Shown in pieces: positions 7,212-63,769 of a DNA stretch of 64,000 nucleotides. The DNA comes from Anadara kagoshimensis (lineage: Eukaryota; Mollusca; Bivalvia; Arcoida; Arcidae). Positions within the stretch are counted from its first letter, which is position 1, and each line of letters starts with the position of its first letter. A model generated the notes under the pieces. It was not told the DNA's origin, did not search any database, and saw only the letters and a program-made list of their open reading frames with translations. The DNA lies in contig CM037862.1 in NCBI GenBank assembly GCA_021292105.1, positions 6,180,765-6,244,764 of the forward strand, written 5' to 3'. Both the position numbers and the translations under genes were made by a program.

Positions 7212-10200
7212 AAGAAGAAGAAGAAACGGTGCAAAAACAATAAGTCGCCAAACTTTGTTTGGGCGCCTTAATAAATAAAAAAACTTAAAAAGAGAAAGAC
7301 GGTAACACCCGTTTTTAAACACGTTACATGAAAGCTGAGCAATATAGTAATAAGAAATTTCACTATAACTGTACAGTTTACTAGTACTAGTTTTATAGTG
7401 CTAGCTCACAATTTTGTTTGGTTGTAATGTTGTTTTACGTCGCATCAGCAATTCAGGTGCTTGCTCACCGAATCAGTACGCCAGACTTAATGCCGAGCAC
7501 TAGGCGAGACAGTCGTATCTCAATTTTTATGTCATTTGCATGAACCATACGGGGTTCCAACCCACGATCTCCCACTCTCGAGGCTTCGCTCTGACAACAG
7601 TACAACAAACAATATATAGTAGAAAAATTTGACCGAATACTTTTGGCAGGTATCTGTATATCTTTAGCGATTTTTCTTTTCAGAAAATGCCCAAAAAATC
7701 AAAAGATATATACAAAAGACATGCGATTGAGGATATCAGAAAATCTGTAGAACTGGTCAAAAGTAAACAAATTAGCATAAGAAAAGCAGCGGAAAAATTC
7801 GATATCGCTAAATCAACACTTGCTGATTATGTATCCGGAAGGTCAGTCGAAGGAGTCTAAGCTGGTAGAAAAACTATTTTTCCAAAAGAAGTTGAAAACG
7901 CGATGGCAGAGAAGATAATGGATGCTGCAGATAAAGGTTTTGACTTGGACGCCGACAGGTTCTTCAAAAAGCCACAGTGCTAGTAAAATGTTTATGACTA
8001 GGTACTCATTCAAACGCGGGATGCCGTCCAAAGAATAGTTCTATGGATTTAAAAACAGAAACCCGAAGGTAGTAACAAGGGCCCCAGAACCTCTAAGTGA
8101 ATCCAGATCAAAACTTATGAATAAGCCGGTGATCAGTAATTATTTCTCGACCTTGGCAAAATCCTAGATGATTTACAATTAAAATGCACCAGATCGTATT
8201 TGGAACATGGATGAGAAAAATGTAAGGCTTGACCACAGACCTGTAAAAGTATTGGCCAGACGAGGGACCAAATCGGTACCAGGAAGAGTCAGTAACTCTA
8301 GGGAGAGTTGCAATTGTGGCCACAGTTAATGCAGCTGGAAAACGACTTCCACCAGCAATATTGTTAAAGGGAACACCAAAATCACTCTGGGGATGGAACA
8401 CAAGTGAAGGCCCTGATGATGCATATTGGACCTACCAACAAAATGCATGGATGATGGACTTTTTTGGCGTGCAATGGTTCAAAGAATTATTTCTACTAAG
8501 TATCGGAGCTGAACGACCACAATTTTTAATTCTCGATAGCCATTCTTCACATGAAGTAACAGAGATGCTAGAATTAGCCAGAGATGAAAATTCATGTAAT
8601 GACTTTCCCGCCACATGTACTCACCATTTGCAACCTTTAGACAAGTCTGTGTTTAGTCCTCTAAGTTCAGCTTACAGTACTGTGTGTCCCGAGTTCATGA
8701 ATACTAACCCCAACAATTCGGTTTTGAAATGGACATGGCCAAGTTTATTTAAAGTGGCATGGGAAAGAAGTGTAGTTAATGAATCCAATATAAAAAGCGG
8801 ATTCCATGCTACGGGTGTATATTCCTTTAACCCTTCTATCATTGGAGACGATAAGTTTAAGCCATCTCTCCCTTTTGATAAAGAGAATCAAGTAACAGAT
8901 CATGTACCTGCATTGGATAACTCTTTTCAGTCAGACCCTTTAAACGCCAGTATCAGTTTATTGGAAATTTCATTTGACATTCATACAGGGATTCAGATTG
9001 GATCTGATATTTTACCGGAAAGTTTTGAACTTTTACCTGTTACCGACAATATAAATGACGCCAATCACAACCAGACAGTGGATTGGAATTCTAACTTGAA
9101 TACTATCTTTGAGTTGCCAGTGGCCGAACGGAAATCTTCAACAAAGGGCAAAAGAAAATTATTACGACACATAGACCTTTAACAAGTGACGAGATCATTG
9201 GTGCTAAAAAAGCTGCTGATGACAAAAAAATGGAAAAGAAAAAACAAGAAAACAAATTGAAAAGGGAACTTAAAAGAGCAGAAAAAGAACTAAAGCAAAT
9301 TCTTAAAACATGAATAAATTTCACTTTACATAAGTTTAATTTCAACTTCCATTCGTTGTCTCGCTATTCTTATATTTGAAATTGATACGCGATCCAGGAT
9401 TTTTGGCTCCCGGACAAACCGCACTATTCACTTCAAAGTTTACGTGTTAGCTTTTGTAAATATTGAATAATATTGAATAATAGTTATAACAATTCATTAT
9501 TATGTAATGAGTTTTTGTAATAGAATATTTCAAGTTCTTTTGTTGTTGTTGAATGTTGCTTAACGTCGCATCAGCAATTTCGGCAGCTATTCACGACGAG
9601 AACACTTTTATTAATCTTTATGGGTTAATCTATGAACATGTTCGTGTATTCGTGTATGCATGTGAAGTGCAAGTGTGTTTTATGGTCTGCCTTCTACCAG
9701 AGCGCACTCGGGGCGACTTTAAGGTGCTAGCACACTGAGTCATACCACTCCCCCAGCTACATTATACTGACACTGGGTGAACCATTAATGGTCAACAACA
9801 AGGAAATTCACTTTCTCACATGTGGTCTGAGCAGGATTCGAACTCACAGCGGTGAGAGGCCCTGGATTGTAGACCGACGTCTTGTTCATTAGGCCACTGT
9901 GGCCTCAATCCTAGTACTTGACAGGCTTGAAAAATGCATTTTTAACTAGGCTATATGTAATATCATAAAAATGTAAGATTAAAATTATTTCAAATATAAT
10001 AAGATGAAAGGTATTATCGTGCAAAATATATGGGCAGTGGGCATGCACCATTATGGTTCCCGAAAGTTAGGTTGCTGTATTTACACTTTGAGAGGGACCG
10101 AAGTAATAGGTTTGACCCAAACGCAATAAAAGTACTTGATCATCCAGCACCAGTGATAAAGGCTTCTTTGAATAGGTCATATGCAGCACAACTTTCTCCC

Positions 10201-16200: not shown

Positions 16201-18944
16201 CTTATTTAAGCGATATTAATTTATTGCAAATTAAGATAGTAATCATAAAGTAACCATTGAAGTTTGCCGTTGGAAGATAAAACCAAAAACCAAGACATCA
16301 TACATTATGTGAACTTTGTAAAAGTGATTTTATGCATATTTGTTTGTTATTGCAATATGCGAATTTTATGATGTATTCTAATGATATAACTAATACATTC
16401 TTTTTTCTAAGAATGGGTCAAATATTTCTTGAAGACCATTCTATATACAAGATAAAAATAGTCGTTTGACAAATATATGTTAACAGAACATAAAGTAGTA
16501 ATACTATCACAATTGCTGTTTTACAAACGTTATATCTCAGGGAATCTCAAAATTTCTAGGTTGGACCAGTAGAGATGTTGCAAAACCTCATAGAAACGAA
16601 CGATATCAAGGTATACTCGTACTTTAAATGATTTGAATTTTCTATAATTGTTTTAAATTTTCTGTATTGTTTTTAGTTTTTTTTATTATTTTTAAAAATG
16701 TTCTACATGTTTTTAATATTTTATTTAGGAAAATTAATGAAAATACGATAACATCGTTCTGTATGACCAACATAAAATCAATTTAATTTATATTTAAGAA
16801 TATTCGTCTCAATGTTTAATGTCAAAGTAGATAAGATTAAAGCTGCCTAAACTTCACTGTTGTTTACCACCTAATAAGAAACACAAAACACATGTCAATT
16901 ATTGTATTTACAATTTTGACAAAACATTCGATACAGTTACTTATCAAACGCTGTGATATTTGAGTTTTATCGTGAATTATTTACACCACTAGGGTAACTC
17001 ATTTTCTAGAGTATTCGCTCCGTATCTTGTGAGGCCGTGGGTTAAAACCCCGGTCGGTGTGTGACAAGGGCTTGAAAATAGGTACTGACGGTTGTTTCTA
17101 CAAGCACTCGGTGTTTATAAAATTGAATATTACGCGTTCTTCGGAAGAAACCTAAAAACCGATTCCCGTGTCACGGCAGGCACAGTAAAAACCACTCCCT
17201 TTCTCAAGCGCACTGCAAAGTTAAAAACTTCACCTATGACGTTTCGATATAAGTTAAATATTCTAAATAGTTCCACACAAGTTCATTGAATTAGAACAGG
17301 TTTAACATGAGAATGTGCATATTAAGATAAAAAGAAGAATTAATCAACATTCCTTAAAGAATAGAATAAATATACATCTGTGAGAATAGAAATGTCAAAT
17401 TAAAAAAATTTATAAACCTACAAACTCAAAACTTGTAATGAAACGATGACTTACCATCTAGGGTTTTACCCAACAAAAACCCCATAAGCAGCTGTGAGTC
17501 TACAAATAAAAAATGAAATATTAAACATATATTTTACCAGTGTTAATCTTACAGCACTAGAATACAATTACCCATCATAAGTGCTTGACCAAAATTGTGA
17601 AACCTAAAATTTTAAGGGGTTGAAAAATATCGAAATGACCAAAATATATGTTACCAAAATCAGCTAAGGAAATACGCATGTGCTTTGCACGAGGGATTAA
17701 AATAGATTGCAAATTATGAAGTTATCCATTGTCAAAGCAAATACATGTCACAACTACTAGAGAAACCAATGTGTGTATGTACAGTTACAAAAAATATATA
17801 TTCCATTTGTTTATTACTTATTTTTAAGCCTTTCTCGATAAATTTTCAAACCAACTTTATATCTAGATACACTGCTCCCGCCGCGTGTGTAATAAAATTG
17901 AGAACGAAAGGGACATGAAACTATGGGAAGTAAAGTATATCCATGGTAATCTGGAATTCAGGCAATATTCATGGATCAACAATTTATTTGGAAGCAGCTT
18001 GATTCCTTGTATATAGTTCCCGCTGTGAAACAAACTGCAATAGCTCCAGCAAAAAATCAACAGAAATGAAATCTGGTGGATGGCTAAAATGTTAACAGTC
18101 ATTGCAACATTGGCCGTTTATATTTTAATTACCTAGATGGATGAAAGTGTATTTGTAATAATGACATTTATACCGTTGTTCTCTATGGAAACTTTAGTTT
18201 CTGTTCTCTATGGAAACTTTAGTTTCCTATAACTGATCATCTTGATATAATTAAAATAATCTTGAACTACTAATGGGCGTAAAACACCATTACTCTTAAG
18301 TGACACTTTGAGAAGATGTGTACATTACTACCATATTAGATATGAATTAACTAAATCAAAAACAAAATACTAATACATGTCTGAATCACAATCTAGGAGC
18401 AAAGTAAAAATTTGGAACTGAAAAGTTAGGTTAGACACGTGAACTTCCACCAGGGAAGTGAAGCTGAGAGCTCCAGAAGGGTAAGCACCTCCCGTTTAGC
18501 TAGCTACACCAAAAACCTGTGTAAGCAAACATGTGTGAAAGGAATATGGAAGCATGGGACGTCAAATATATCCAAGGCAATCCTAGACACGGAGACATCA
18601 AACTTATCAACAATAATGTGATGACGGCCATAAAACTTTTTGAGGACCCTGATAAGTCTAGGCTTGCAATATCACTAGGTCAAGAATTTATTTGCAACCA
18701 GCCTGCATCGTTGTACAAAGTCTCTGTTAGCAAAGTTGACAATAGAAAAACCGACGTCCTTATCTGAATATTCCGCATGATAAAAATTGATAGGTGTTAT
18801 TATTCACCATAAAAAATCTAACAATCTTAATTCAGTGGAATTTTGTTTGTTATTTAATTTAAAATTGCCAGTAGCATTTTCTATAGAAAAAAGGGAGATT
18901 TCTAAAATTGTTAACTATGTAAAAGTGGTATGCATCTAATATAT

Positions 18945-19007: not shown

Positions 19008-21770
19008 CCTGCAACTAACGTGTACATTGACATCATAAAGCCTGCCGAATAAACCTTATCTTTATTCGGTCACTGACCCAATAAAGCCATGCGCTAACTG
19101 TGACGTCACAGTTACGGCACTACTTTTTCCATTCAACATTTGACGTAACCTTTGACCCAAATGAACCCCATTCTCAATGTAAACAAAACACAGTATAACA
19201 ATAAACATGATGAATAAATTCATAAATTTTCATATTTTATTTTAAAAAAAGATTGATTTTTTTTAAAAATACACGTAGTTATATAAATATGATTTAAAAA
19301 TAAAAATGAAAAATTATAAGTTGTTACTTTATTTATTCCGCCGGACTTAAAATATAGCAGAAATACAGAAAAACGTCTGCAACATTTCATCAAAGAATAT
19401 TTATTTTAATATTATTATTGTAAGAATTTAAGATTTTGTTACATATATTAAATATGAAAATAATATCGTATTGTAGTTATTTATTTAAATAATTGAGAAC
19501 TACATGTGCTTGAACGTCGGACTGAGCGAAAATGACAAGTACGGGTGTGATGGGGTAGCGTGACGTCACGTAAACATTTGTATCATTGCCCTTGGAGTGT
19601 AAACAAACAAGTCAAACATGGATAACACGCAGTTACAACTATAATTTTTAGGACGTATCTGTTGCAGGATAAAGTAAATACATGGTCATTAACGGTGAAT
19701 AAAGGTCGTATTTGGCTCGGGGGCGAAAACGTGTAAAAAGCTCGGCAGAGCCTCGCTTTCTACACGTTTTCTCACCCTCACCAAATACGACCTTTATTCA
19801 CCGTCAGTGACCATGTATTTACTATATACCGATCCTTGTCCAAATCGCTTTCACACAGTAAAAACTTTTTGAAAACAAACAAATTTAGTAAAACACGTGA
19901 ATCAAGGGAGTGAGTCCAATTACTGCAGGAGGGTAAAGGTAAAAACCTTTGAAATTTGAAGTTCAAATTTGAATTTCATTGGTCGTAAATAAATCGGTAA
20001 CGGTTATACTTTTTTAAATATTTTTATTAATAGCAAAAGTAGTCAGTTTGTATTTAGGACGGCGGTAAGGCACAAAATACTCAATTGGCATCAACAGAGT
20101 TTCTTTCATTTTAAATTTGATTGTATATCGTCCAGTGATCGCAATGTACAATCTTAAAGTTTAAGGAAATGAAGTACACGCAAGCTTAGCCAAGGCAAAT
20201 AAATATTATACAACCATATGTAAAATTCCAATTTATTAAATGGAAAGTCTCTAATAAAGTTGTAATGAAATCGAAAATAATGAAAACATGGTATTGCTTT
20301 CATTTTAACCTATATGACAAACGTGATGGCTTCAATTTTTGTATTGTCAACTTTTTTATGCAACAATATACTTATGCTGTATTTGGTTTACAATTAATAT
20401 AATATGATAAATCTTGTTCCCATTACCTACACATTTTACACCGGGGTAAGCGGCTTTCAAATAAATTGACACAGGGATATTGCAGGCCTAGACTTATCAA
20501 GGCCATCAAATGTTTAATTGCAGTCGTCACAATATAGGTGATAATTATTATGTGCCTTTTCCCAAAATATCCTAGATAAAATTGACGTTCAACTTTTAAT
20601 CTCTTTTTTGATTTTTGACGTGGTTGGTGTTGCTAGCTAAACATTAGGCACTTAATCTCACTTCTTTGATAGAAGTTCACGCGTTACTTTTCATTTGCCA
20701 GTTTTTTAAGTTTTACCTTGCCTTTGAGGTTGTTATTTGGGGATGGTATTTTTGTATTTGATTTTGCTCAATGCATAACATCTATCTAAAAATAAAACAT
20801 TAACACTCCAATCGATGCCCAAATCAAAGTAAAAACTTTGAAACTGGGAAATTAAACTAAACACTGAAATTCCAAAATGAAAACGAGACCGGGTGGTCCG
20901 GAAAGGTAAACATCTTCGGTTTATCTATCTACACTCGCCATGCGTGAACTAAAATTTGAGAATGAAAGAAACATAGAACTATGTGGAAAATAAATAAATA
21001 AAAGTATAAAATAAAGAATACTTACCACATCCTTGACCACCAAAACCAAAGGCGTAAACTGAGCATGGCGCCAGTAGTAACAGCCAGAATATCCACATGG
21101 TGATGGTTAAAGCTGAAACTCAATTAAAATATAGAAGTTAAATATGCATTGTCTTCTATTATATTGATGGTGGGCCAGAGCAAACAATCTAAAAATTTAC
21201 TTGTGTTAACGCCTTATAAGCATTTGTTTTTATAAACTTATCAATGCACCAGTATGTTTGTAAAATAAGCAACATATCTATACTTTACATATTATGAAGA
21301 TTTACAAAGGCCAAAAAATTATGAAACAACATATTTTTTATATAAAGATTGGAGAGTTATTAATTTTCATGACAATTGTACATTCAAGAGACAAAATTTT
21401 GGATGCAGATTAATCGGTTATTAAGTTTTTCAACAGCATTATTCCTATCATCCCTCATCTCATGAAACAGAACTCTGTGGTTAATTTTGAAATTACAACT
21501 ACACTACATAGGTTTGACTTTTTTATAACTTAAAATAAAGCTTGATAACGTAATCATTTTTAATATTACTTTTTTTAATTTGCATTCACCATATTTTACT
21601 ATAGTCTATTACATTAGCCAGTTTTGATTTATACAAAATGAAATAAAATTGACAAATAAATAAATAAACTGGTTCCTACCTGGCCTTCTCGAAGTTGTGA
21701 TTTAGGCTGGTCTCCGTTGGTACATGTGCTTTAAATATGAACTGATAAGCAATGGCCGTAGGCGCCACGG
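1624..21770 (-). CDS. C-type lectin gene, secreted, six exons recognised (gene span)
   Basis: The gene is assembled from separate minus-strand exons at 21680-~21760 (5'UTR), 21112-21026, 17499-17455, 11542-11418, 10847-10751 and 1856-1642 or 1624. Every exon has AG acceptor and GT donor sites and the phases agree at each junction (1-1, 1-1, 0-0, 1-1). The product has a 16-residue signal peptide, a Gly-rich linker and one C-type lectin domain with a CPEGF start, an extra disulfide loop (GC..DDCYFF), the RGAHLV helix, HWMALND, and a final C...W...C...YICK block. The usual EPN/QPD and WND calcium/sugar motifs are not visible, so ligand binding may be calcium-independent (inference). Bivalve lectins of this build are usually secreted immune recognition proteins. 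The fifth exon has an internal frame break, so the copy may be a pseudogene or contain a sequencing indel. Family assignment is strong; completeness is not. Confidence 0.82.
1930..4870. repeat. Minisatellite, 43-bp unit (about 68 copies)
   Basis: The unit is GACGTTTGTATTAGACACTA followed by TGTTTCTGTATTGGACACCTTGT. The 43-bp spacing was measured between successive GACGTTTG motifs at 2820 and 2863. Each unit is two related half-units of about 21-22 bp. The centre (2770-3240) is nearly uniform and the edges are diverged, the usual pattern of arrays that turn over from the middle. Because 43 is not a multiple of 3, apparent ORFs on both strands only walk through the frames and are not genes. The array lies in the last lectin intron. 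Confidence 0.95.
4871..5247. other. Intronic sequence, nothing recognised
   Basis: AT-rich sequence between the minisatellite and the left end of the pogo-like transposon. No exon, repeat or RNA feature could be supported. Confidence 0.5.
5834..7273. mobile_element. Nested MITE-like element with tandem core and AAT/AAG microsatellite
   Basis: The ends are TAAGGCGCCCAAAC and its exact inverse GTTTGGGCGCCTTA. The interior holds four to five diverged units of about 130-165 bp beginning near GGGTGGGGATC (6370-7060), a conserved GAAGTTTGGTTAAGATTGG segment, and then (AAT)n and (AAG)n microsatellites at 7150-7225. It has no coding capacity. Apparent poly-Arg/poly-Ser ORFs are microsatellite artefacts. 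Confidence 0.7.
7420..7600 (-). mobile_element. SINE family 2, partial and diverged
   Basis: It shares the TACGTCGCATCAGCAATT segment with the copy at 9545-9905 and ends with a B-box-like GGTTCCAACCC on the opposite end. It is shorter and more diverged than the 9.5-kb copy. Confidence 0.4.
7687..9312 (+). pseudogene. pogo/Tigger-like transposase, multiply frameshifted
   Basis: The ATG at 7687 opens MPKKSKDIYKRHAIEDIRK, followed by a Psq-type helix-turn-helix (ISIRKAAEKFDIAKSTLADY). A stop follows at 7857. A CENP-B-like segment (AGRKTIFPKEVENAMAEK) continues after it. The WNMDEKNVRL segment near 8200-8230 carries the first catalytic Asp. Frame changes occur near 7975, 8190, 8290 and 9150. The longest open piece (8316-9182) has the second and third acidic positions, LILDSHSSHE and HHLQPLDKSVF, typical of DDE_1 transposases. 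A Lys/Glu-rich C-terminus (KKAADDKKMEKKKQ) ends at 9312. With at least four frame changes and one in-frame stop this copy cannot encode an active enzyme. Confidence 0.85.
9545..9905 (-). mobile_element. tRNA-derived SINE (family 2)
   Basis: On the minus strand the head reads TGGCCTAATGAACAAGACG (A-box-like) and, 30-40 bp on, GAGTTCGAATCC (B box), typical of a tRNA-related pol III promoter. The body runs to TGCTTAACGTCGCATCAGC and ends in a (TTG)n-like tail at 9540. Related partial copies lie at 7420-7600 and 49405-49640. Confidence 0.6.
10030..10263 (+). CDS. HIRAN-like domain ORF inside the pogo-like element
   Basis: The 77-residue frame contains FERDRSNRFDPNAIKVLDHP, then a short strand, then a helix with YAAQLSPIIESGLV. 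This matches the HIRAN pattern: R.P.N..DPNAI.V followed by a helix before the LSP/LAP segment. HIRAN domains bind 3' ends of single-stranded DNA in HLTF/Rad5 proteins and also occur alone in mobile elements. The start is not secure because an upstream exon or frame change may exist. It lies 720 bp past the transposase remnant and inside the transposon's right terminus, so it may be element cargo or a captured host fragment. It could also be a pseudogene. Confidence 0.5.
   Translation: MGSGHAPLWFPKVRLLYLHFERDRSNRFDPNAIKVLDHPAPVIKASLNRSYAAQLSPIIESGLVHRRLLYLKPKEEP
10751..10847 (-). CDS. Lectin exon 5: middle of the lectin domain, frame-broken
   Basis: The acceptor TTTGTTTCAG opens a phase-0 exon reading IDCNIRGAHLVIVGTQ, the conserved Cys-helix and strand of the domain. 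The original frame then hits TAA after RMMP. Another frame across the same bases reads ENDAIKKKLMTISCIK, the expected continuation (the family commonly has TQEENDAI). The break falls in a GAGAGA run, consistent with loss of one base or gain of two. The donor is CAA/GTAAGA. The 97-nt length as it stands joins the last exon in the unshifted phase, so a second change or an undetected exon is needed if the frame is repaired. Confidence 0.75.
11418..11542 (-). CDS. Lectin exon 4: N-terminal half of the lectin domain
   Basis: The 125-nt exon enters in phase 1 and leaves in phase 0 (GCTAGA/GTAATT). It reads GFGGSLFG, then the lectin start PKCPEGFQNLDGCPRDDCYFF, which gives the two cysteines of the long-form N-terminal hairpin, then the STDTRSWDNAR helix. 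This is a textbook opening for a C-type lectin domain. Confidence 0.85.
11550..12420. other. Lectin intron, no feature seen
   Basis: AT-rich, non-repetitive sequence between lectin exon 4 and the LINE poly(A) tail. No coding or structured element could be supported. Confidence 0.5.
12426..14350 (-). mobile_element. 5'-truncated L1/Tx1-like LINE with poly(A) tail
   Basis: A run of about 30 T/C-interrupted T at 12426-12456 is the poly(A) tail on the minus strand. Upstream on that strand (14350 towards 13100) the decayed reverse transcriptase reads INAAELLSAAIKHDPNIKG, then QYADYTFLL (the catalytic YADD changed to YADY), KTPIYIDNYIEKL, ITIGKTTVIKSLALPILI, IFNFIWNGNTDKVKRN and ADGGLRVPNIESVYRSLK, the C-terminal landmarks of L1/Tx1-type ORF2. 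Stops and frame changes separate the pieces (for example near 13870). The element is truncated within RT at about 14350, as expected for target-primed reverse transcription. Confidence 0.75.
13102..13762 (-). pseudogene. LINE ORF2 C-terminal remnant
   Basis: Two open pieces (13424-13762 and 13102-13374) cover the region after the RT domain, including CDQADGGLRVPNIESVYRSL and a Lys-rich end containing VPKEWKQKIRSVKK. They are offset in frame with a break near 13400. The open length reflects recent decay, not function. Confidence 0.65.
14360..16980. other. Lectin intron, no gene seen
   Basis: AT-rich sequence. Two short related segments (around 15050-15130 and 16450-16520, both with TGTTAWCAGAACATAAAGTA and CTGTTTTAC) look like diverged repeat fragments. 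No ORF with family similarity was found. Confidence 0.45.
16985..17275 (+). mobile_element. tRNA-derived SINE (family 1)
   Basis: The head has a B-box-like GTGGGTTAAAACCCC at 17037. The body holds GCACTCGGTGTTTATAAAAT, AAAAACCGATTCCCGTGTCA and CTTCACCTATGACG. The same ordered blocks occur inverted at 37680-37990 with a much better preserved tRNA head. The open frame at 17092-17289 lies entirely in the SINE body and is not a gene. Confidence 0.55.
17455..17499 (-). CDS. Lectin exon 3: 45-nt symmetric exon
   Basis: The exon has acceptor TTATTTGTAG/ACTC and donor GATG/GTAAGTC. Its 45 nt begin and end in phase 1, so it adds exactly 15 residues (DSQLLMGFLLGKTLD) and can be skipped without changing frame. 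In the assembled protein it lies between two Gly-Phe-Gly-Gly stretches, in the linker before the lectin domain. Detection rests on splice sites and phase agreement with both neighbours. Confidence 0.7.
17548..17720 (-). pseudogene. Decayed hammerhead repeat (core deleted)
   Basis: The segment is colinear with the ribozyme repeat at 30598-30780 (shared TAGTGCTGTAA, TTGTGAAACC, GACCAAAAT and CTAAGGAAATAC blocks). The 13-nt stretch that follows TATTC in the intact copies, comprising CGAAAC through GGCCGTC, is missing, so stem III and the GAAA core strand are gone. The deletion ends exactly at the predicted cleavage site. Confidence 0.6.
17860..18065 (-). mobile_element. RT-family fragment
   Basis: Contains the ACACGTGTGTAAT-like, GAAAGGGACATGAAAC and TCAACAATTTATTTGGAAGC blocks of the family in minus sense. 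It lacks the 3' terminus. Confidence 0.55.
18360..18770 (-). mobile_element. RT-family retroelement copy
   Basis: Well-preserved 3' half of the family: CATGTCTGAATCACAATC at the 3' terminus, CACCAGGGAAGTGA, GGGTAAGCACCTCC, AGCTAGCTACACC, the cDNA-like block around 18590-18700, and the start of the RT-derived block at 18735. The two overlapping small ORFs here are repeat-derived. Confidence 0.75.
18937..19003. repeat. (TA)n microsatellite
   Basis: About 66 bp of almost pure TA directly abut the left end of the next MITE. Confidence 0.95.
19002..19676. mobile_element. MITE with TTTATCCTGCAAC inverted ends
   Basis: The left end TTTATCCTGCAAC and right end GTTGCAGGATAAA are exact inverses. Both subterminal regions carry a perfect TGACGTCA (19101 and 19561) and a TGTAAACAAA segment, so the inverted symmetry extends inward. 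There is no ORF. Confidence 0.6.
19673..19823. repeat. Foldback element, 73-bp arms
   Basis: The arms starting AGTAAATACATGGTCA and ending TGACCATGTATTTACT pair over about 73 bp with roughly 90% match around a 5-nt loop (CAGAG at 19746). Transcribed RNA would form a long hairpin. It directly abuts the right end of the preceding MITE and may belong to it. Confidence 0.75.
20280..20775 (+). mobile_element. RT-family retroelement fragment
   Basis: Plus-sense copy beginning in the RT remnant (TATGACAAACGTGATGGCTT, equivalent to YDKRDDF) and running through AGGCCTAGACTTATCAAGGCC to a diverged 3' tail. Followed at 20815 by an inverted partner. Confidence 0.6.
20815..21000 (-). mobile_element. RT-family 3' fragment
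   Basis: Minus-sense 3' end (CCCAAATCAAAGTAAAAAC, GGTGGTCCGGAAAGGTAA, GAATGAAAGAAACATAGAAC). Together with the plus-sense copy ending at 20775 it forms a tail-to-tail pair, immediately downstream of the lectin signal-peptide exon donor. Confidence 0.6.
21026..21112 (-). CDS. Lectin exon 2: signal peptide
   Basis: The acceptor GTTTCAG is followed by ATCACC-ATG at 21098. The 24 codons read MWIFWLLLLAPCSVYA and then FGFGGQGC, a classic signal peptide with likely cleavage after VYA. The exon ends in phase 1 at a consensus donor (TGTG/GTAAGT). The start is chosen because it is the first ATG after the acceptor and opens directly into the hydrophobic core. Confidence 0.85.
21680..21760 (-). other. 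Lectin gene 5'UTR exon
   Basis: This is a non-coding leader exon with donor GGCCAG/GTAGGAACC. It sits between the TATA box and the signal-peptide exon, whose acceptor (TTGAGTTTCAG) leaves only 14 nt of leader before the ATG. The 5' edge is an estimate from the TATA position. Confidence 0.5.
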
Positions 21771-24585: not shown

Positions 24586-24771
24586 AACTGCCATTTTAGG
24601 AATATTAAACATGAATAATCAGTTTAATGATTAAACAATATTAAATTTAAATAGAAAGTCTTTCATTTGTTAAAACACATCTTCACATAAGAAGTACTCT
24701 TTAACATTAAGAAACCTTTATGCTTATCGACACGTGTGTCGGTGATATATAATTATATATTGTACCCGTTT

Positions 24772-24839
24772 TAATTTTACAGCACTAGACGGCCGTTTCG
24801 GAATACAATTCCTCATCAGTAGTGATTGGACAAAAATTA
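24772..24839 (-). ncRNA. Type I hammerhead ribozyme (copy A)
   Basis: On the minus strand the core reads CTGATGA (24819-24813), then stem II GGAAT-TGT-ATTCC, then GAAA (24799-24796), a very short stem III with palindromic loop (ACGGCCGT), and GTC. Cleavage is predicted between 24788 and 24787. Stem I pairs CACTA with TAGTG, followed by an internal loop (TGTCCAAT / CTGT) and an outer helix TAATTTT/AAAATTA. All universally conserved hammerhead positions are present. Type I hammerheads with a minimal stem III are known from Penelope-like retroelements and animal retrozymes, where the self-complementary stem III loop allows dimeric activity. Activity here is inferred. Confidence 0.85.
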
Positions 24840-24999
24840 TAAAATCAAAATTGTATAAATATATATTACTTTAAACAATACTAGTTTTTTAACCATGTAA
24901 TTTAAATGATTAAATTAAACTTGATTTATATGATATATAAAATTGTGTTCACATATATAATTAAGTATAATAACTGCACGGTGTCCGATCTTTGATTGA

Positions 25000-26820
25000 T
25001 CTCAGAGTAAATATATAAAGGTCATGAACCACTTATAAAGAAATTCATCACCGATTTATGTTGTAAGTATATACTTTTTTAATTCCATCAAATTACAATA
25101 AGTATAGAAATGAACAATTACTTCCATGTTGGAATTTTGTTAGGCATACGCCATGTAAGTTGTGAGTTAAAGTAGACAGACTTAATGTGGAAATGTAATA
25201 AATGTCAACATTAACCGGTTAAAAAAAAACTTAAAAATGATGATATAATATGAAGTTTAAAAATTATCCCGCTAAAAAAATAAAGAGCATCTTGGCGGAA
25301 TAAATGTGTTGGACAATATAATTGAAATCTCACACCATCCCAATGATCACTTAACCGTTACAAGTAGTTTTATAGCAAAAAATATAATAATAAAATGAAG
25401 TCCCAATTATTATAAGTTAGGTTTTATATCTTTAAATTCAATATAAGATTTAACCAATGAGAGTTGTTTTAGTCAAGTGATCAATTACAAAAAAAAATTA
25501 AATTGATCACCACATCTCCACCAATTAATATTTGACTAAAAGAAGTTTTGTCAATATGAAACAATGAGCGTCCGGAAAATTGTGGCAAACACTTATGTAG
25601 GAACAAACACAGCAGCGTCTCCATAAAATAAGGAGCACCCCATTTGTTAGATTTAATAGCATAAAAACAAGAAACGGTTTCAAATGAAAACAGATATTTT
25701 ATAAAAACCTAACGTGTAAACGTTTACTAAAAATAGATTTTATACAATATTGAAAGACAGAACTGTAGTCAAAATAAATAAAATACCCTAAAAACGATAT
25801 GTTTAATACCGTTTGCATGGACAGAATGGATTGATCGAAAGACATTTCAATATCAAGCAAAAATTTATCATATGAAGTTCCATTGAGCTTAATCAATTCG
25901 TGTTAAAAAAGTAAAAACAAAAATTTAAAAGTGTTATTACGAACATTCAATTAGAAAAACCCCTGGCCTAGATATACTTTTATTATAATTTGCTGCTAAT
26001 TAAAATTTGAAATTCCTAAAAAACAACTAAAGAATACTCCATCATTCAAAGTATATCCTTAGTTAAATTTGGTAAAATATATTTTAATCCTTTGGGTATT
26101 TTTTCAACATCTTGTAAAAAAGTTTTGGTGTCATTATTTTGATCCAGAGAGAGTGCACGGATTAAGAACAGTAAGTCTTCCCACCACAGATGGCAATGTA
26201 GATATCAGATATGCACATGAAGTACCACTTTCAAGAAACACCGATAAGCAAAGAAGGAAACTAAAATTTATCAGTAAATCGAGAACATTTCAAATAAAAG
26301 TTCTTAGGATGATAAAATGACACCGTAGCTTCTTAAATAATTAACCTTTCCTAATTAGTACAAAATATTTTGGCGAGTTAAAAATCTCTATTTACCTTTA
26401 AACTTGTGGACACACTTAATAGTCCCATAGTGCACATGCAACAATTTCAGCTATTGAACCAAGACATCTCTATAATTAATTTTACGGAGATATATGTGAT
26501 ATAAGTAATTGTTTATAGACAATGTAGCATGTTTATTGTTTGACATTTAGTCCGAATGACTGATCTTTACCTTAACACCAAATAAAGTTATACGTAGCCA
26601 TACACTGCCAAGTCATTAAAGAACTTGTTAATTAATGAATGATACTGCATAATGAATTTATGCTGCATGTAAGTTTTTCTGAAATATTTCGTTTCTGTCT
26701 ACACATCTATGATTTTGCACATTTATCTATAAAATAAATCTTCATATATTCTGATAAATCATTATGCAAAATTTTTATAGTATGTACAACGTAGCTAGCT
26801 ACATCATGATAAACAAACAT
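25000..26820. other. No gene seen
   Basis: AT-rich sequence with scattered open frames of 60-85 codons lacking recognisable domains. It probably contains diverged repeats. No exon could be supported. Confidence 0.4.
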
Positions 26821-30597: not shown

Positions 30598-30661
30598 ATT
30601 TTACAGCACTAGACGGCCATTTCGGAATACAATTCCTCATCAGTAATGCTTGCACCAAAAT
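30598..30661 (-). ncRNA. Type I hammerhead ribozyme (copy B)
   Basis: Minus strand: CTGATGA (30643-30637), stem II GGAAT-TGT-ATTCC, GAAA (30623-30620), minimal stem III (ATGGCCGT, with a U-G pair replacing C-G), GTC, cleavage predicted at 30612/30611. Stem I is six pairs (GCATTA/TAGTGC), with an internal loop and an outer ATTTT/AAAAT helix. Compared with copy A, stem I differs in several bases but still pairs (CACTA versus GCATTA against TAGTGC), while the core is unchanged. Confidence 0.82.
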
Positions 30662-30790
30662 TATGAAACCAAAATTTTTTTTCCAAGATGTTGAAAAGAA
30701 ACCAAAAAGACCAAAATCATCTAAGGAAATACTTTGCATGAGGTTGTATACCTTAGAACATATATTATATAGTTTCAATTTCGGATGAGC
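30662..30790 (-). repeat. Repeat body attached to hammerhead copy B
   Basis: The 5'-flanking (minus-sense) segment of the ribozyme shares CAAAATTATGAAACC, GACCAAAATCA and CTAAGGAAATACTTTGCATG with 17590-17720 and with 35440-35520. This defines a hammerhead-bearing repeat at least 160-190 bp long. Confidence 0.6.
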
Positions 30791-35399: not shown

Positions 35400-35530
35400 G
35401 TTTTTGCATCTATAAAGATACGACTTTTTTTAAGATGTTCTAAAAAACAAAAGACGAAGATATATTTTACCAAATTTAGCTAAGGAAATACTTTGCATGA
35501 GGAAGTATTTCCTAGTTTTTGAGGAATTTC
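35400..35530 (+). repeat. Fragment of the hammerhead-linked repeat (no ribozyme core)
   Basis: Shares AGATGTTCTAAAAAACAAAA and TTAGCTAAGGAAATACTTTG with the body of copy B. The ribozyme end is absent. Confidence 0.45.
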
Positions 35531-35634
35531 AAATTTTAAATAGCAGTAAATTTAGACAATAATATATTTCTGACAATTATACAAAATTATTGAATTATTG
35601 GCTACTGAGGGAAAACGGACTAACAGAATATATT

Positions 35635-49929: not shown

Positions 49930-50180
49930 TCCATATTTTACTAGTTCTATGTTCTTTTCATTCTCATGTAATAGGTGTTGCTAACTTAACACGCTGTGTC
50001 TCACTTCCCTGGTGGAAAACAATCTGCACCTTCGCTGACGACGTATCGATATAAGAGAAATATTCTTGACTGGACGTAAAACATTATTACTCAACTCCCT
50101 GGTGGAAGTTCACATGTTTAACATAATTTTCACGTTTTCAAAGTTTTTACTTTGCCTTGGAATCGTATGTTTGTTTTTGA
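49930..50180 (+). mobile_element. RT-family 3' end with inserted SINE tail
   Basis: Contains TAGGTGTTGCTAACTTAACA and CTCACTTCCCTGGTGGAAAA, then a SINE family-1 tail (GCTGACGACGTATCGATATA at 50034), then a second CTCCCTGGTGGAAGTTCACA and AAAGTTTTTACTTTGCC. The duplicated CTCCCTGGTGGAA block indicates insertion or recombination within the repeat. Confidence 0.55.
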
Positions 50181-50390
50181 TTTATTGTTATTTTCAATTT
50201 CTTGAATAAAATGCTAGATCGATGGTTCAATGTTGGTAAAATAATGCTAACTTTTTTAGATTAAGTGATGGGGGTGTTTCATGCTCCCTGGTTGTAAAAT
50301 AAGAAAGAATCCATAATAAACATACCATTTCATATCTGAATAACTATCCAAAAGCAAAGTCAAAACAAAGTAATCAAGAACAAACGTCTT

Positions 50391-50455
50391 AATTTGGTCC
50401 AAGTACTACTGATGAGGAATTGTATTCCGAAACGGCCGTCTGGTGCTGTAGGGTT
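50391..50455 (+). ncRNA. Type I hammerhead ribozyme (copy C)
   Basis: Plus strand: CTGATGA (50409-50415), stem II GGAAT-TGT-ATTCC, GAAA (50429-50432), short stem III with the palindrome ACGGCCGT, GTC (50438-50440), cleavage predicted between 50440 and 50441. Stem I pairs AGTACTA with TGGTGCT using two wobble pairs. The outer AATTT/GGGTT helix is mostly wobble, suggesting drift. The core is intact. Confidence 0.82.
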
Positions 50456-50649
50456 GAAACTGGTATAATACCGTATGTAATTTAAACCATGTCAAGTTAA
50501 ACTGTGCAATTCCACCAGGGACGTGATGCCGGCTGTCCTGCAGGGTTATGCTTGGAAGGTATGACATGGCTTTATCTTGATATTATAAATCAATCAGTCA
50601 TCTATCAGAAAATACACCGAGAAAGTCTTCTCTAAGCGAAGGTAGGGAA

Positions 50650-51898
50650 ATGATTCAGTTCCTATCATTAGAAATAAATGCACTTAAAGACGCATTCGCT
50701 TGCCTGTCAACTGATGTTCAGTGTCTTAAACAATCCGTCACACAGGAGCTCAAACATCTTCAAAAAGAAAACGAAAAAGCGCAAAAGGACATAAAAAGTA
50801 TCCTTAATACCATTTCTGACTGTAAAGCTAAAATAGATGATGTATTTTCAAAAGAGTTTCAGGGAATGAATTCGATTGGTAATTTGTCAAACAAGTTACG
50901 TTTCGTTTGCAAAAAATACAAACCGTTGATAAGTCCAGATACGATATAAATGATCAACTAAACAGTGTTGTAACAGCTACGCGAGATAACGCTTTGGGTA
51001 TTGAAAGGCTGGAGGATAAACACAAAAGCAGTCAAAACGTGAATAAGCCAGATTTACAAGAGCTAAAAGAGCGGTTGTCATTTGTTGAGACAAAACTTCC
51101 TTCGCTTACATCGAGCAACACCGAAATGGACCGTCTTCGCTCGAAACTACAACGGATGGATACTCAAGTCAGTGAAATTGAGAATTCTTTCTGCGTTAAA
51201 TTACAAAACTCAATGGAATTGTTTGCTAAACATGTTTACGAAGATATAAACGAAATCCGTGATCTCTATAATGCTAATCTCAAACAGGAACCCGAAAGTG
51301 AGGCCTTCGCTGAAGTGTTAGATAAAAGTAATACATGCAACCTCTCGTCGTCTTCTTTTTCTCCAAGTACTAACCGCAAGTCGAGCCAACGGAACAAACA
51401 ACAAAAAGCTCATAAAAGCATTGAAAATGTTTCAACCGATAAAGAGAACAGCGACGAGCATACGCCAAATCACGATGTAGGAAAGACTCTTGACGGACAT
51501 GTTGTAGTAAACGATAAAAACACCGAAGATGCTAGTTTGGAGTCTGGTTCAATCCTCACAAGGAAGTCACAAACACATAATGCAGACATGTCTCTACGGT
51601 TACTACTAGCGAGACTGGATTTGTTGCAGTTCGCCCAAAACACGTGCACACAAAACGATATTATCTCGGCAAAATATCGGATACTGTTACAATTGATGAC
51701 ATTAAAACATATCTGAGAGAACGTGGTGTTGTTTGCACTGTTGTTCGTTTAATGAGAAGTAGAATTCGCGAATCAGTAGCAGCGCGTGTTAATATCGTGA
51801 GAGACGACACACAAAAGGTTGAGAAAGCCGGCTTTTGGCCACCCGGAATAATATGCCGTCCTTGGTTGTCACAAAATGAGTATTACAAGAATGAATAA
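50650..51898 (+). pseudogene. LINE ORF1: coiled coil plus RRM-like C-terminus, frameshifted
   Basis: Three frames cover one protein: 50650-~50920 (LKQSVTQELKHLQKENEKAQ, a coiled coil), ~50920-~51640 (a second coil, LEDKHKSSQNVNKPDLQELK, then a Ser/Lys-rich linker), and ~51640-51898 (KRYYLGKISDTVTIDDIKTY, VVCTVVRLMRSRIRESVAAR, GFWPPGIICRPW). The last segment resembles the RRM-like fold common in LINE ORF1 proteins, which act as nucleic-acid-binding, trimerising chaperones. Frame changes lie near 50910 and 51630. Confidence 0.7.
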
Positions 51899-51939
51899 GT
51901 TTATATATATCCGATAGTATTTCTTATTTATAACATGGT

Positions 51940-52966
51940 GAACTTAAATATATTGAGTGGAATGCAACTGGAATTATGTCTAGTTCATACTATTTGTCTA
52001 AAACGTTGAAAGCAAAATGTATTGACATATGTGGTATATCTGAACACATGCTGCTACCAGAAACGGTTAGTTTCCTTGGTTCTATAGAAAATGACTATGA
52101 ATATGTCTCAACAACAGACTTTAGCTTACATCCACTTTTTCCTCGGCGTGTCGGTAAGGGTGGTGTAAGTATACTGTGGCATAGACGTTTATCAGGTATG
52201 ATAGAACCAGTATCTATTGACCCCCCTGACGATAGAATTATTGTAGTAAAATTAACTCTTAGTGAAACAGAAGTTGTGCATATAGTACAAGTTTACTTGC
52301 CAACTATGAAATATCCTGTCGACGTATATAGAGAGTATACCAGTCGACTTTTTTAGTTATGCAATATCTATGGGTTACAAGGTACAGTTGTCTTAATGGG
52401 AGATTTTAACGGTCATTTTGATGGCGATAGATATTATAACAACTTTAATTTTGAGATGTTTAGTTACAGATGCAGACATGTTTTGTCTTACAACATCTAC
52501 AGCATGCCTTGGCCCCAGGTACTCATATGTTCCCGATGGACACGGTTCATCTAGTTTAATAGATCATGTTCTTATCACAAAAACTGTAATCGACTGCGTA
52601 TCTGAATGCGCCATTCTAGACGATGATGCTTTAGACGTATCTAACCATAGACCAATATTTTTGTCATTGTTTCTTGAATCTCAGACATGGTCCGGTGCAC
52701 ATGAATCTAATTCGCGCTTAAGGAAACGTTACAAATGGACATCTGAATATGTCGCCCTGTACAGAGAACAGTTAGAATGTAATTTGCAAACTATAGGCAA
52801 TACTGAACTTTCTCGTGAAAACATAGAGCAGTTTTACAAGGAACTTACTGATACAATCATTTATACTTCAGATAGAGTCTTACCTGTAAAAAAGTTTAAA
52901 CCGTTTTTGAAACCTTATTGGAATAAAGAACTCAAACAGTTACATCATAATGCGTCGCGTAGCTAG
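51940..52966 (+). pseudogene. LINE ORF2 endonuclease domain, frameshifted
   Basis: EWNATGIM opens the domain, with the catalytic Glu in DICGISEH, then GKGGVSILWHRRLSG. A stop at 52354 is followed in another frame by TVVLMGDFNGHFDG (the conserved GDFN) and then, after another shift near 52440, YSYVPDGHGSSSLIDHVLI and the terminal DVSNHRPIF. The usual SDH catalytic pair reads SNH here, so the Asp is lost. The domain nicks target DNA in target-primed reverse transcription. This copy could not. Confidence 0.8.
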
Positions 52967-55124
52967 GTCACGTTGGATTATGGACGGAAAACCTAGGGGT
53001 TTTAATTTTGTCACTTATTCTGACTACAAAAATGCAAAGCGCGTATTTCGGTGTCACAAAAGGCAGTTTGAAATCGATCAAATTCGGCAAGATTTTGAAA
53101 AAATAGATCAAGCAGTTGATGTTGATCAAAACCTATTTTGGAAGTTAATGAATTCAAAACGAGGTCGTCATAAAGGTAAAGCCGGTACGGAAATAAACTT
53201 TGACGGAAAGATTTCTCGTGACCCCGTTGACATTGTGAAAGGATGGGGACATTATTTTAGAAACCTGTATAGTTTTAACAGTCATAACGAAACTGACAGC
53301 GGACATACCGATGCGTCAGTGACAGAGTGTTTAACCGACAATACCAATTACGACAGAGACTTATTGCGATATGAATTCACTGTCGATGAATTAGAAGCTG
53401 TTTTACGCAATCTGCCAAATGGAAAAGCACCAGGTATTGATTGTGTCACTTACGAACACTTGAAGCATGCTGGACCAGGACTAGTCACTAATTTACTGAT
53501 CCTTTATAACGCATTTATTCGCTATGAATTTGTGCCAGACACGAGCAAAATAGGTCTTATTATTACGCTACATAAAGGTGGAAATAAACCAAAAGACTCA
53601 CCGGATAGTTATAGAGCAGTATCGCTTCAATCTGCTCTAATTAAAGTTTTTGAAAAAATGATTCTGAACAGAATAGATAAATCAGGATTAAATGACAAAA
53701 TAAGCGAACTTCAAAACGGATTTCAAAAAAGTATGAACAGTACCATGGCGTCCTTCACAGTTAAGGAATGCATCGAATATAGTAGGGAACAAAATAGCAA
53801 GTTATATGTAGCTTTCATGGATGCCGAAAAGGCGTTTGACCGAGTATGGCACTCCGGGTTGTTTTACAAACTATTCAGATTTGGTTTAGTTGGCCGTGGA
53901 TTGAGGATGGTTGTCGAATTATACAGAAATATGACTGGTGTAGTTGTCCATCAAAATTTGTTATCAGATGAATTTGAAATTCAGCGTGGTACAAGGCAAG
54001 GAGGTATTTTATCCCCATGGCTTTACTTAATATACATTAATGATTTGTTGATCGAATTATCCGCATGTGTGTCAGGTTTGAAAATCTATGGAACTAATTT
54101 TTGTTGTCCGTCGCAAGCTGACGATATAGTTTTGATGTCTTTCACAAAAAACGGTCTAGAGGAGCTCTTGGGCATATGTCACAGCTACAGTGAAAGGTGG
54201 AAATTCAAATACAATGCTTCAAAATGTAAAGTTATCGTTTTCAATGAATCGAAGGCACAATACGCTGAAAATTCAAGAACATGGACATTAGGTACCAAAA
54301 TGATAGATGAAGTAGAAAATTACGTCCACGTAGGTATAAATCTTAATAAATATGGAGGAACAAAACCCGACATAGAATCTGTTGTGAACAAGATACGTTC
54401 TACGTTCTTTACTTTAATGGAGCTTGGTGCTCATCATGAATATATGCATCCGGCTTCAAGCATTAAAATGTATAATTCTGTCGTGCTACCGAGGGCATTG
54501 TTTGGTTCTGAAATGTGGACATCGTTATCTTCAACTGATGTTAAACGTCTAGAAACAATTCATCATTATTGTCTCAAAAAGATCCAAGGTCTACCTATGC
54601 GAACCCGCTCGGACATGGTTCTAAGCCTTTTAGGTTGTACTTCAATTTCTTCTTTTATTGATAAGAGAAAGCTAAGTTTCTTGGCTCTTATGTGCCGTTT
54701 GCCGTGCAATCACGCAGCCAAAAAACTTTTCTTAATGAGATTATCTCAGCAAAGACATTGTACTATATCTAAAGCTAGTTATATTGCGGATGTTTTAGGA
54801 ATTTTGAATAAATATCAACTGGAGGAAATTCTTGAACACTGGCTGGATGAATGTGATTTTCCGAGTAAGGCATCATGGAAAAAGATAACACTTAATGCGA
54901 TACACAAATTTGTCAATCTGTCTTGGTCACAACGGATGGTACAGTCAACAGATTTTTCGCGTTTCTCGAAAATTCATACAGTCTACCAAATGAATCTCTT
55001 CTGGAAAATTTGCAAACAAAACCCAACACTAAAAGATGCATGTTCAAAAGCAGTAGAAATCTTGTGTCTCATTCCAAATGATAATAAACGTTGTGATTAT
55101 TGCCTAGCTACAACGTTGAAATAG
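52950..55124 (+). pseudogene. LINE ORF2 reverse transcriptase domain (724-codon open frame)
   Basis: RT landmarks are in order: LPNGKAPGIDCVTYEHLKHA, then GLIITLHKGGNKPKDSPDSY and RAVSLQSALIKVFEKMI, FQKSMNSTMASFTVKECIEY, AFMDAEKAFDRVWHSGL (first catalytic Asp), QRGTRQGGILSPWLYLIYIN, and PSQADDIVLMS (the catalytic DD). A thumb and C-terminal region with ALFGSEMWT follows. The ATG at 52950 is not a real start: the frame continues the endonuclease frame after a shift near 52945. It ends by a frame change near 55115. Confidence 0.9.
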
Positions 55125-55396
55125 TTAATCATGTGCTGTTTCGTTGCAGCTGTATTGACATAATTAACCTACGGTACAAGTACTGGATGGACATAATTGA
55201 TTTGTTCGGAGTACATGTTTTCAGCTACATGGACAACCTGGATGAGACGACGCTAGAACAACTTATCCTCGGGGGAATGGTTAGTCGTTTAAAAGAACAG
55301 TTTCCTGAGATGGATGTTATACTTTTTGAAACAACAAACTGCAAGTTTTTGCATCAGTTATTCAAAAACACTGACATATATGCAATAACGGAGTGA
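55100..55396 (+). pseudogene. LINE ORF2 C-terminus with Cys/His motif
   Basis: The preceding frame supplies CDYC and this frame supplies NVEIVNHVLFRCSCI, together forming a C-x2-C...H-x4-C zinc-knuckle-like motif typical of ORF2 C-termini. The frame change sits inside the motif. Ends TDIYAITE and stop. Confidence 0.7.
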
Positions 55397-55494
55397 ACAT
55401 TTTGTTAATGACATTACTGATATATATTTATTATCATATTGACATTGAAACCTTAGCTCATAAGAAACTTACCGTGATATACTGATCACAGACA

Positions 55495-55733: not shown

Positions 55734-57436
55734 GTCCGTTGTCTGTCGTCGTCGTCGTCGTCGTTGTCGTCGTAAACTTTTCACATTTTCGACTTCTCCT
55801 CTGAAAGTACTTGGCAGATTTCAATGAGACTTGGTCAGAAGCATGTCTGGGTCGGTGCAATTCAGATTTGTTCGTGGCGTTGCCATGGCTACCATAACTA
55901 GGTCAAGGTGACCTAGGGGTGCAAAAATCTTAAAAAATCTTCTTCTCCGAAAGTATTGTTTGGAGAAAAAATCTGATGAGATATTTGGCTTCTCTAGGGT
56001 CTTAAGCCTATAGTTTGTTCATTTTGTGAAATTCGGTCGAAAAATGGGTTACGCGTTTTTGCGTTTAATTTTGAAAAAATCGTAAAATAGCTTCAAATTG
56101 TTATAACTTGACTACTTGACCAGATAATGACATGGGGTTTTCAGTTTTGACATCTTCTTGTTAGTATCTTCAAAATGAGGTCAAGGTCAATTGTGAAGGT
56201 CGTGACCTAATTTTTTTTACCTCTGATTATAATTATTATCTCGAAAACTATAAACTTTTTGTATAGTCATGTATATTAGAATGTTGTAGGTATTGATACA
56301 ACGATCATTTTGATGTATAGAAAAAGGTCATGGGTTCAAAGGTCAAGGTCACAGATGCGAAACAATACCAAAATGGTTAATTATCTCGAAAACTATAAAC
56401 TTTTTGTATAGGCATGTATATTAGAATGTTGTAGGTATTGATACAACGATCATTTTGATGTATAGAAAAAGGTCATGGGTTCAAAGGTCAAGGTCACAGA
56501 TGCGAAACAACACCGAAATGGTTAATTATCTCGAAAACTATAAACTTTTTGTATAGGCATGTATGTTAGAATGTTGTAGGTATTGATACGACGATCATTT
56601 TGATGTATAGAAAAAGGTCAAGGGTTCAAAGGTCAAGGTCACAGATGCGAATCAATACTGAAATGGTTAATTATCTCGAAAACTATAAACTTTTTGTATA
56701 GGCATTTATATTGGAATGTTGTAGATATTGATACAACGATTATTTTGATGTATAGAAAAAGGTCATGGGTTCAAAGGTCAAGGTCACAGATGCGAAATAA
56801 TACCGAAATGGTTAATTATCTCGAAAACTATAAACTTTTTGTATAGGCATTTATATTAGAATGTTGTAGGTATTGATACAACAATCGTTTTGATGTATAG
56901 TAAACGGTCATGGGTTCAAAGGTCAAGGTCACAGATGCGAATCAATACTGAAATGGTTAATTATCTCGAAAACTATAAACTTTTTGTATAGGCATGTATA
57001 TTATAATGTTGTAGGTATTGATACAACGATCATTTTGATGTATAGAAAAAGGTCATAGGTTCAAAGGTCAAGGTCACAGATGCGAAACAACACCGAAATG
57101 GTTAATTATCTCGAAAACTATAAACTTTTTGTATAGACATGTATATTAGAATGTTGTAGGTATTGATACAACGATCATTTTGATGTATAGAAAAAGGTCA
57201 TGGGTTCAAAGGTCAAGGTCACAGATGTGAAAACAATACCGAAATGGTTAATTATCTCGAAAACTATAAACTTTTTGTATAGGCATGTATATTAGAATGT
57301 TGTAGGTATTGATACAATGATCATTTTGATGTAAAGAAAAAAGTCATTGGGGTTTAGTATTTACGTTTACTTTAAATCTATCAGCTAGCCATTAGTTATC
57401 AGGTGAGCGTATAAGGCCCATGGGCCTCTTGTTTTG
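55687..57436. mobile_element. Non-autonomous element with CTCACCTGA/TCAGGTGAG ends and 145-bp array
   Basis: The left end AGCTCACCTGAGCCAAAGGC can fold on itself (GAGCCAAAGGCTC). The right end ATCAGGTGAGCGTATAAGGC leads into the palindrome GGCCCATGGGCC and CTCTTGTTTT. CTCACCTGA and TCAGGTGAG are exact inverses. A (GTC)n tract lies at 55744-55770. Repeats with these ends are common in molluscan DNA. No coding potential. Confidence 0.7.
56236..57350. repeat. 145-bp tandem array, about 7.7 copies, with AGGTCA direct repeats
   Basis: TTATCTCGAAAACTATAAAC recurs at 56236, 56381, 56526, 56671, 56816, 56961, 57106 and 57252 (six spacings of 145 and one of 146). Each complete unit contains GGTTCAAAGGTCAAGGTCAC, that is two adjacent AGGTCA half-sites (DR0) including the extended TCAAGGTCA site. 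Unit-to-unit identity is very high. Confidence 0.95.
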
Positions 57437-63260: not shown

Positions 63261-63750
63261 GGCCTGTTGTAACCGGTGTCAAATCTACTCTCTTGACTTC
63301 ATATTAAAACTTTTTAATATCGCCTTCTATATCGCTATGTAAATTGTTTTAGCGCCATTTTCCTAACCTTTGCGGCGATACCAAAAACAGGAGTGAGAGG
63401 GTTTTTCATATAGGTCATTAACATAATCTTGGCTTCTTCGACTCTACGAATATAGTCACTCCCACAGTCATATGACGTCATCCATATCACTGACCGCACG
63501 TGACCGGCCTGTTGTAACCGGTGTCAAATCTACTCTCTTGACTTCATATTAAAACTTTTTAATATCGCCTTCTATATCGCTATGTAAATTGTTTTAGCGC
63601 CATTTTCCTAACCTTTGCGGCGATACCAAAAACAGGAGTGAGAGGGTTTTTCATATAGGTCATTAACATAATCTTGGCTTCTTCGACTCTACGAATATAG
63701 TCACTCCCACAGTCATATGACGTCATCCATATCACTGACCGCACGTGACC
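63261..63750. repeat. Perfect 245-bp tandem duplication
   Basis: GGCCTGTTGTAACCGGTGTC starts at 63261 and again at 63506. The two 245-bp copies appear identical base for base. Each carries GGCGCTAAAA-type and TGACGTCA (63473 and 63718) motifs and a CACGTGACC end. Identity indicates a very recent duplication or an assembly duplication. Confidence 0.95.
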
Positions 63751-63769
63751 GGTCGGAAAATCCGTATCA

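Follow-up and report, generated by a model that had tools for sequence, protein, structure and literature searches.

Introduction

Retrozymes of the mussel Mytilus galloprovincialis, in the passages of PMC7229834 that describe them, are tandem repeats of ~350-390 bp that carry a type I hammerhead ribozyme (HHR), are low in GC and have no coding capacity. The same passages give ~5000 HHRs for the mussel, report the repeats as circular RNAs and state that most archetypal loop-loop contact nucleotides are missing from their HHRs. They also describe satellite retrozymes of newt and axolotl with units of 330-350 bp, a weak stem III with a palindromic tetraloop, 126,247 HHRs and reported action as dimers. 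The retrozyme cycle, as set out in passages of PMC7229834 and PMC7761336, consists of transcription, cutting by the HHR, ligation by host enzymes and reverse transcription of the circles. Penelope-like elements and Terminons likewise carry a type I HHR in or near a terminal repeat and form 5'-truncated and tandem copies (passages of PMC11167929 and PMC6431247); in Terminons the HHR is described as the 3'-terminal fold (PMC6431247, in part).

Here we describe a retrozyme of the bivalve Anadara kagoshimensis. It shares with the mussel repeats, as far as the cited passages describe them, the type I HHR, the low GC, the tandem arrangement and the lack of coding capacity; the unit measures ~340 nt against ~350-390 bp, and copies number in the thousands in both animals. 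Unlike in the mussel description, short single pieces make up many of the copies here, with a 3' end that falls preferentially 35-38 nt after the cut, and the target duplication, seen at one empty site, is 4 bp long where those passages give >4 bp for animals. Likened by description, the newt and axolotl satellites are also similar, though their 126,247 HHRs exceed the 10,421 cores found here. Penelope-like elements and Terminons, in the passages cited, encode a reverse transcriptase, which this retrozyme does not, and the Penelope-type HHR is minimal whereas that of the retrozyme in the window has a two-part stem I. A short palindromic stem III is common to the retrozyme HHR and to the Penelope-like copies of the same genome.

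Results

A type I hammerhead motif on the minus strand

An HHR motif that includes a two-part stem I reads from 24839 to 24772 on the minus strand of the window, the whole 64-kb stretch of DNA that was analysed. All invariant hammerhead positions, claimed in a sequence-only reading of this DNA, were found there. The invariant core CUGANGA...GAAA...UH with three helices and an open stem I, which defines a type I hammerhead, is present, and the 32-nt core CTGATGA-GGAAT-TGT-ATTCC-GAAA-CGGCCGT-C occupies 24819-24788. Stem II (GGAAT/ATTCC, 5 bp) is closed by a UGU loop, and stem III is the self-complementary ACGGCCGT, which stands after GAA and before C17, bearing out the type I topology and palindromic stem III that had been proposed. 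Dimeric hammerhead forms have reportedly been treated by Lunse et al. 2017. From the position of C17 after stem III and the hammerhead consensus, self-cleavage (GUC^U) is predicted between 24788 and 24787 on the minus strand, the same position as was named earlier. The two-part stem I around an internal loop, also described before, is present as an outer helix of 7 bp (TAATTTT/AAAATTA), the loop and an inner helix of 5 bp (CACTA/TAGTG), but the inner helix has lost a pair to a U-C mismatch and has 5 pairs where array copies of the same repeat have 7. Fold prediction for the 68-nt window fragment alone did not give the hammerhead (best fold -10.0 vs -2.6 kcal/mol for the hammerhead fold); an intact retrozyme copy gave -13.6 vs -8.4 kcal/mol.

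A structural HHR scan detected three matches in the 64-kb window, with cores at 24819 (minus), 30643 (minus) and 50409 (plus), compared with a mean of 0.017 and a maximum of 1 in 60 first-order Markov resamplings; all three are members of a single repeat family. Allowing up to 2 mismatches, we counted 10,421 matches (5,282 + 5,139) to the 32-nt core in the genome from which the window comes (1.115 Gb, 36 contigs) and 0 to its reversed pattern. A looser hammerhead pattern gave 3,422 + 3,422 matches there, again with 0 for the reversed pattern. The excess over resampled matches and the number of cores against none reversed show that the motif is not a chance occurrence.

Over the window, all Rfam families stayed below their gathering scores, and hammerheads were missing from the list that a permissive scan of its full length gave at E <= 10. 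Within 601 bases at the site, RAGATH-1-hammerhead scored 15.9 bits against a threshold of 56.3. In related array loci, Hammerhead_1 matched over the whole model length with 25.5 bits against 34 at two places (L032, E 0.016) and with 17.9 bits against 34 at four places (L018); scans of the related loci L029 and L069 listed no HHR. The covariance-model search put forward with the sequence-only reading, in which a score below threshold was to count against the ribozyme, thus formally came out below it, with 25.5 of 34 bits for the best relative and 15.9 of 56.3 at the site. The gathering threshold is a curated cut-off and not a biological feature, and we give the family evidence, which is decisive here, more weight than this cut-off. 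Covariation was absent across 39 HHR rows (1 cell with a double change vs 1.6 in shuffles); the rows are those left of 44 found after 5 with shifted or indel-bearing ends had been excluded. Conservation of the core relative to the flanks was set aside because the copies had been fetched by HHR similarity. The hammerhead motif of the window is confirmed.

The motif lies in a decayed copy of an abundant retrozyme

Extension of the match at the locus (L001) delimited a retrozyme fragment at 24751-24852, minus strand, which starts 33 nt before the HHR core, extends to 37 nt beyond the cleavage site and is 92% identical to a 339-nt array unit across 102 nt. What had been taken for a canonical, intact, lone ribozyme is a decayed piece, 102 bp long, of a retrozyme that is abundant in this genome; the accompanying pointer to retrozymes and Penelope-like elements was right. 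The 339-nt unit, taken from array locus L029, has six matches in the window at E <= 1e-4. Two of the others carry an HHR, namely 30598-30755 (minus, core at 30643, 82% over 173) and an 89-bp insertion at 50393-50481 (plus, core at 50409, unit match 50393-50488). A degenerate fragment at 17529-17699 (minus, 75%) covers the HHR region, and two fragments represent the body of the unit without the HHR, one at 25987-26146 on the plus strand, opposite to the 24751-24852 copy (83% over 160), and one at 35427-35592 on the minus strand (85% over 172).

L029 holds ten HHR cores at nine 339-nt spacings and one more core 664 nt before. One unit, which has a GC content of 0.34, contains no open frame of more than 61 codons when read round the circle. 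Metazoan non-LTR retrozymes are recognised by HHRs in 150-450-bp repeats that occur in tandem and in many copies, as seen here in the 339-nt spacing and the 10,421 cores, and by non-coding sequence with GC below 50%, as seen in the one unit; the reverse transcriptase and GIY-YIG domain encoded by Penelope-like elements are absent from the unit. The 102-bp segment in the window therefore derives from a non-coding retrozyme whose ~339-nt unit also forms head-to-tail arrays; it is a mutated copy that has lost its 5' part, and this single copy is in itself ordinary. The retrozyme belongs to a known kind, the metazoan non-LTR retrozymes, and appears to be a new family within it.

Units within arrays are identical at 0.998 (L029), 0.994 (L030), 0.987 (L032), 0.978 (L017) and 0.974 (L018), and units of different arrays at 0.975. 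Since L017 and L018 hardly differ from the value between arrays, an origin of each array from one circle is not general. As a circle, the 339-nt unit has no exceptional predicted stability (z -0.6), and the hammerhead is absent from its best fold.

At least 3.2 kb around the finding (L001, C6:6.20 Mb) is duplicated at 94% identity on the same contig (L002, C6:9.03 Mb). The retrozyme fragment is present in both places, and the L002 core is broken (GAAAC to AAAGC). On C4, a 3.37-kb tandem represents a local duplication that contains a retrozyme dimer and pieces of ORFs.

Copies share a preferred 3' end and differ at the 5' end

Among 57 distinct HHR copies, mostly obtained from best-match searches and followed 380 nt ahead and at most 330 nt in the 5' direction, 34 cease to match the unit 34-44 nt beyond the cleavage site, most commonly at 37 (n=13). 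The other 23 comprise 15 that enter the next unit (stops 374-392, eight of them at 379-392, where the 380-nt look-ahead itself fixes the stop), one that stops at 48 and seven that stop elsewhere. A second sample consisted of 16 plus-strand exact-core copies on C1, hand-picked as mostly isolated among the first 100 exact-core places. Eleven of them stop at 35-39, two at 27 and one at 41; one stops at 1, with AATATGTAATT directly after, and one continues to the end of the piece. Three pairs in this sample have the same 3' flank, and counting each once leaves 9/13 copies that stop at 35-39.

Genome-wide, the 30-mer leading to the 3' end occurs 13,096 times with up to 2 mismatches. Lengthened by the next 16 nt downstream, it was found 1,631 times with up to 3 mismatches, compared with 9,403 times when lengthened by 16 nt upstream instead. 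Based on copy extension and these counts, the part of the window copy from the predicted cleavage site to the 3' end of the element is the 37-nt segment 24751-24787 (minus). For the 3' end, we left the query ends of one search out of account, since that query itself ceases to be retrozyme there. Many retrozyme copies thus end 35-38 nt past the cleavage site, and their 5' ends vary; the shortest begin 18 nt upstream of the core, and the longest span at least one full unit.

A preferred 3' end together with variable 5' ends points to reverse transcription that starts at one site of the RNA, and a start inside the unit, past the cleavage site, implies a template that was circular or an uncleaved multimer. 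The data suggest that circular or uncleaved RNA is reverse-transcribed from a fixed starting point. Titles, abstract openings and passages of open-licence literature yielded no fixed 3' end of animal retrozymes relative to the HHR; this is no proof of novelty, and the part that may be new is the architecture, in which a preferred 3' end lies at a set distance from the ribozyme.

One copy is a clean insertion against an empty site

Locus L044 (C6:9.06 Mb) matches window 50036-50392 (97% over 357) and 50482-50587 (98% over 106), and contains neither the retrozyme nor the LINE found there in the window. The two matches overlap by 4 nt, TTAA, so the third HHR-bearing copy is a clean insertion of 89 bp, 50393-50481; it is 5'-truncated and ends in ...TATGTAAT, unit position +36. 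The TTAA at 50482-50485, after the insertion, duplicates 50389-50392. This is the one insertion resolved against an empty site.

A scan of 42 elements found target duplications of at least 8 nt in 1/42 (null 1.0%), not above chance, of 7 nt in 2/42 (null 2.1%) and of at least 6 nt in 4/42 (null 4.2%, or 1.7 expected), none of them an excess clear enough to be claimed; several of these elements share flanks or a locus, and 4-bp duplications are too short for the scan. Passages of PMC3846280 describe Penelope insertions with 8-10-bp duplications and one without.

These results bear on the reading of the repeat as plain satellite DNA, amplified at the DNA level by unequal crossing over, in which the ribozyme would be a fossil without a role in spreading. 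The 339-nt head-to-tail arrays fit such a history, as do the lack of an excess of longer target duplications in the 42 elements and the dimer locus that itself lies within a 3.37-kb tandem duplication. Many listed copies are isolated, however, with a preferred stop on the 3' side, and the empty site shows the copy at 50393 to have been inserted as one discrete piece, with 4 bp duplicated; we hold the satellite reading to be very improbable.

The LINE in this part of the window, a non-LTR retrotransposon at 50600-55400, comprises several ORFs and a 724-aa ORF with an RVT_1 domain; for the latter, a genome copy on C18 shows 100% protein identity over residues 3-724. The HHR copy at 50409 lies ~240-500 nt upstream of this ORF chain with its reverse transcriptase, an arrangement that would suit a ribozyme forming the 5' end of the LINE, like the HDV-like ribozymes in R2. 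However, three other close copies of the LINE begin at window ~50600, >110 nt past the retrozyme end, L044 has the intervening DNA with neither element, and the two other HHR copies of the window are far from the LINE. We rejected this idea, to which we give practically no chance, since the LINE copies begin beyond the HHR fragment and the intervening DNA stands alone at L044. Judged from where its close copies begin, the LINE is unrelated to the retrozyme, and for this element, too, L044 seems to represent an empty site.

Other repeats in the window include a 145-bp tandem repeat at 56235-57347 (7.7 copies); an array likened to it by its 145-bp period alone follows the retrozyme locus on C4 (L030, 9011-9976). 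A 245-bp tandem duplication at 63261-63752 has 100% matches and is therefore probably recent. The window also encodes a 288-aa ORF with a DDE_1 transposase domain (8316-9182). Long hairpins at 59292-59399 and 19686-19810, which scored below threshold with miRNA models, are possibly, at a guess, remnants of hairpin transposons.

Penelope-like elements and a candidate helper

Locus L069 (C15:54986200-54990400) encodes a 728-aa ORF with RVT_1 and GIY-YIG domains. Two Penelope-like copies lie there in opposite directions, and the 3' region of each carries a minimal hammerhead-like motif. The motif reads CTGAAGA...GAAAGTACTA, with a 6-bp stem I and a palindromic stem III, and is nearly invariant in 9 aligned Penelope-like copies (one row has CTAAAGA). 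Two subfamilies differ in the stem III palindrome, which is AGTACT in one and AGCGCT in the other and so stays self-complementary, apart from one row with AACGCT. A typical Penelope HHR pattern gave 0 matches and 1 in the reversed control.

Both L069 copies have shared sequence up to 37 nt past the cut, followed by a T-run. An AT repeat comes right after a short T-run in 3/9 Penelope-like copies (L087, L088 and the reverse copy in L069); in the forward L069 copy it is ~46 nt further to the AT run, and the other five of the nine are cut at 111 bases. In a search with a Penelope-like 3' region, 41 of 48 rows reach query position 206 or beyond and seven stop earlier, and end classes are inseparable here as the query ends in an AT run. 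We do not take the Penelope-like end as fixed, given that these 41 rows run further. An exact agreement of retrozyme and Penelope-like 3' ends at 37 nt was not established.

Passages of PMC7229834 propose Penelope-like elements as strong helper candidates for retrozymes, and those of PMC7761336 note no conserved motif in retrozyme repeats that points to a helper. A Penelope-like helper for the present retrozyme is plausible. A LINE reverse transcriptase might mobilise it instead, a reading that we hold to be a serious contender at somewhat under even chances. LINE proteins are common in the genome (67 matches for one LINE protein), and LINE-driven copying typically leaves 5'-truncated copies that share a fixed 3' end. 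Against a LINE helper, no 3' tail common to retrozyme and LINE was noticed in an unsystematic inspection, and the Penelope-like copies of this genome carry an HHR near their 3' end.

Retrozymes could also relate to Penelope-like elements as SINEs do to LINEs, in which case the HHR and the next ~36 nt would form a 3' module, common to both, that positions the initiation of reverse transcription on circular RNA; we consider this unlikely, though not remote. A Penelope-like protein, in passages of PMC11167929, starts reverse transcription inside its RNA, which is linked there to an optional 30-40-bp tail. For the anole Penelope-like protein, the same passages report that catalytic HHR mutants had no effect on insertion in vitro, that RNA remained functional when most of the HHR was missing and that reverse transcription began 111-118 nt inside the ORF, far beyond the cut. 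All three observations lower the odds of a shared 3' module, and the start sites and the mutants without effect count against a direct role of the HHR.

Discussion

We conclude that the segment is, with high probability, a 5'-truncated relic of a non-autonomous, non-coding retrozyme of ~339 nt that would spread by a cycle of cleavage, circle formation and reverse transcription. In this cycle, a multimeric retrozyme copy would be transcribed and its HHRs would cut the RNA into unit lengths, perhaps paired as dimers through the palindromic stem III ACGGCCGU. A host ligase would close the unit-length RNAs into circles, on which a helper reverse transcriptase, for which we favour a Penelope-like enzyme, would start at a fixed site ~36 nt past the cleavage/ligation junction, presumably primed at the target. 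Reverse transcription would run backwards through the HHR and stop at variable points, often within less than one turn and sometimes after several, and may so yield short fragments, near-full units and head-to-tail arrays, all with a common 3' end. The present data fit the published retrozyme cycle and add a start site to it.

Animal retrozymes give rise to much circular RNA, but which enzyme returns them to the genome is an open question in the field. If the shared 3' module were true, the preferred retrozyme end ~36 nt past the cut and the shared sequence up to 37 nt past it in both L069 copies would be a first sequence-level clue to the retrozyme helper. The preferred 3' end and the one resolved insertion provide a testable priming site in a genome that contains both element types.
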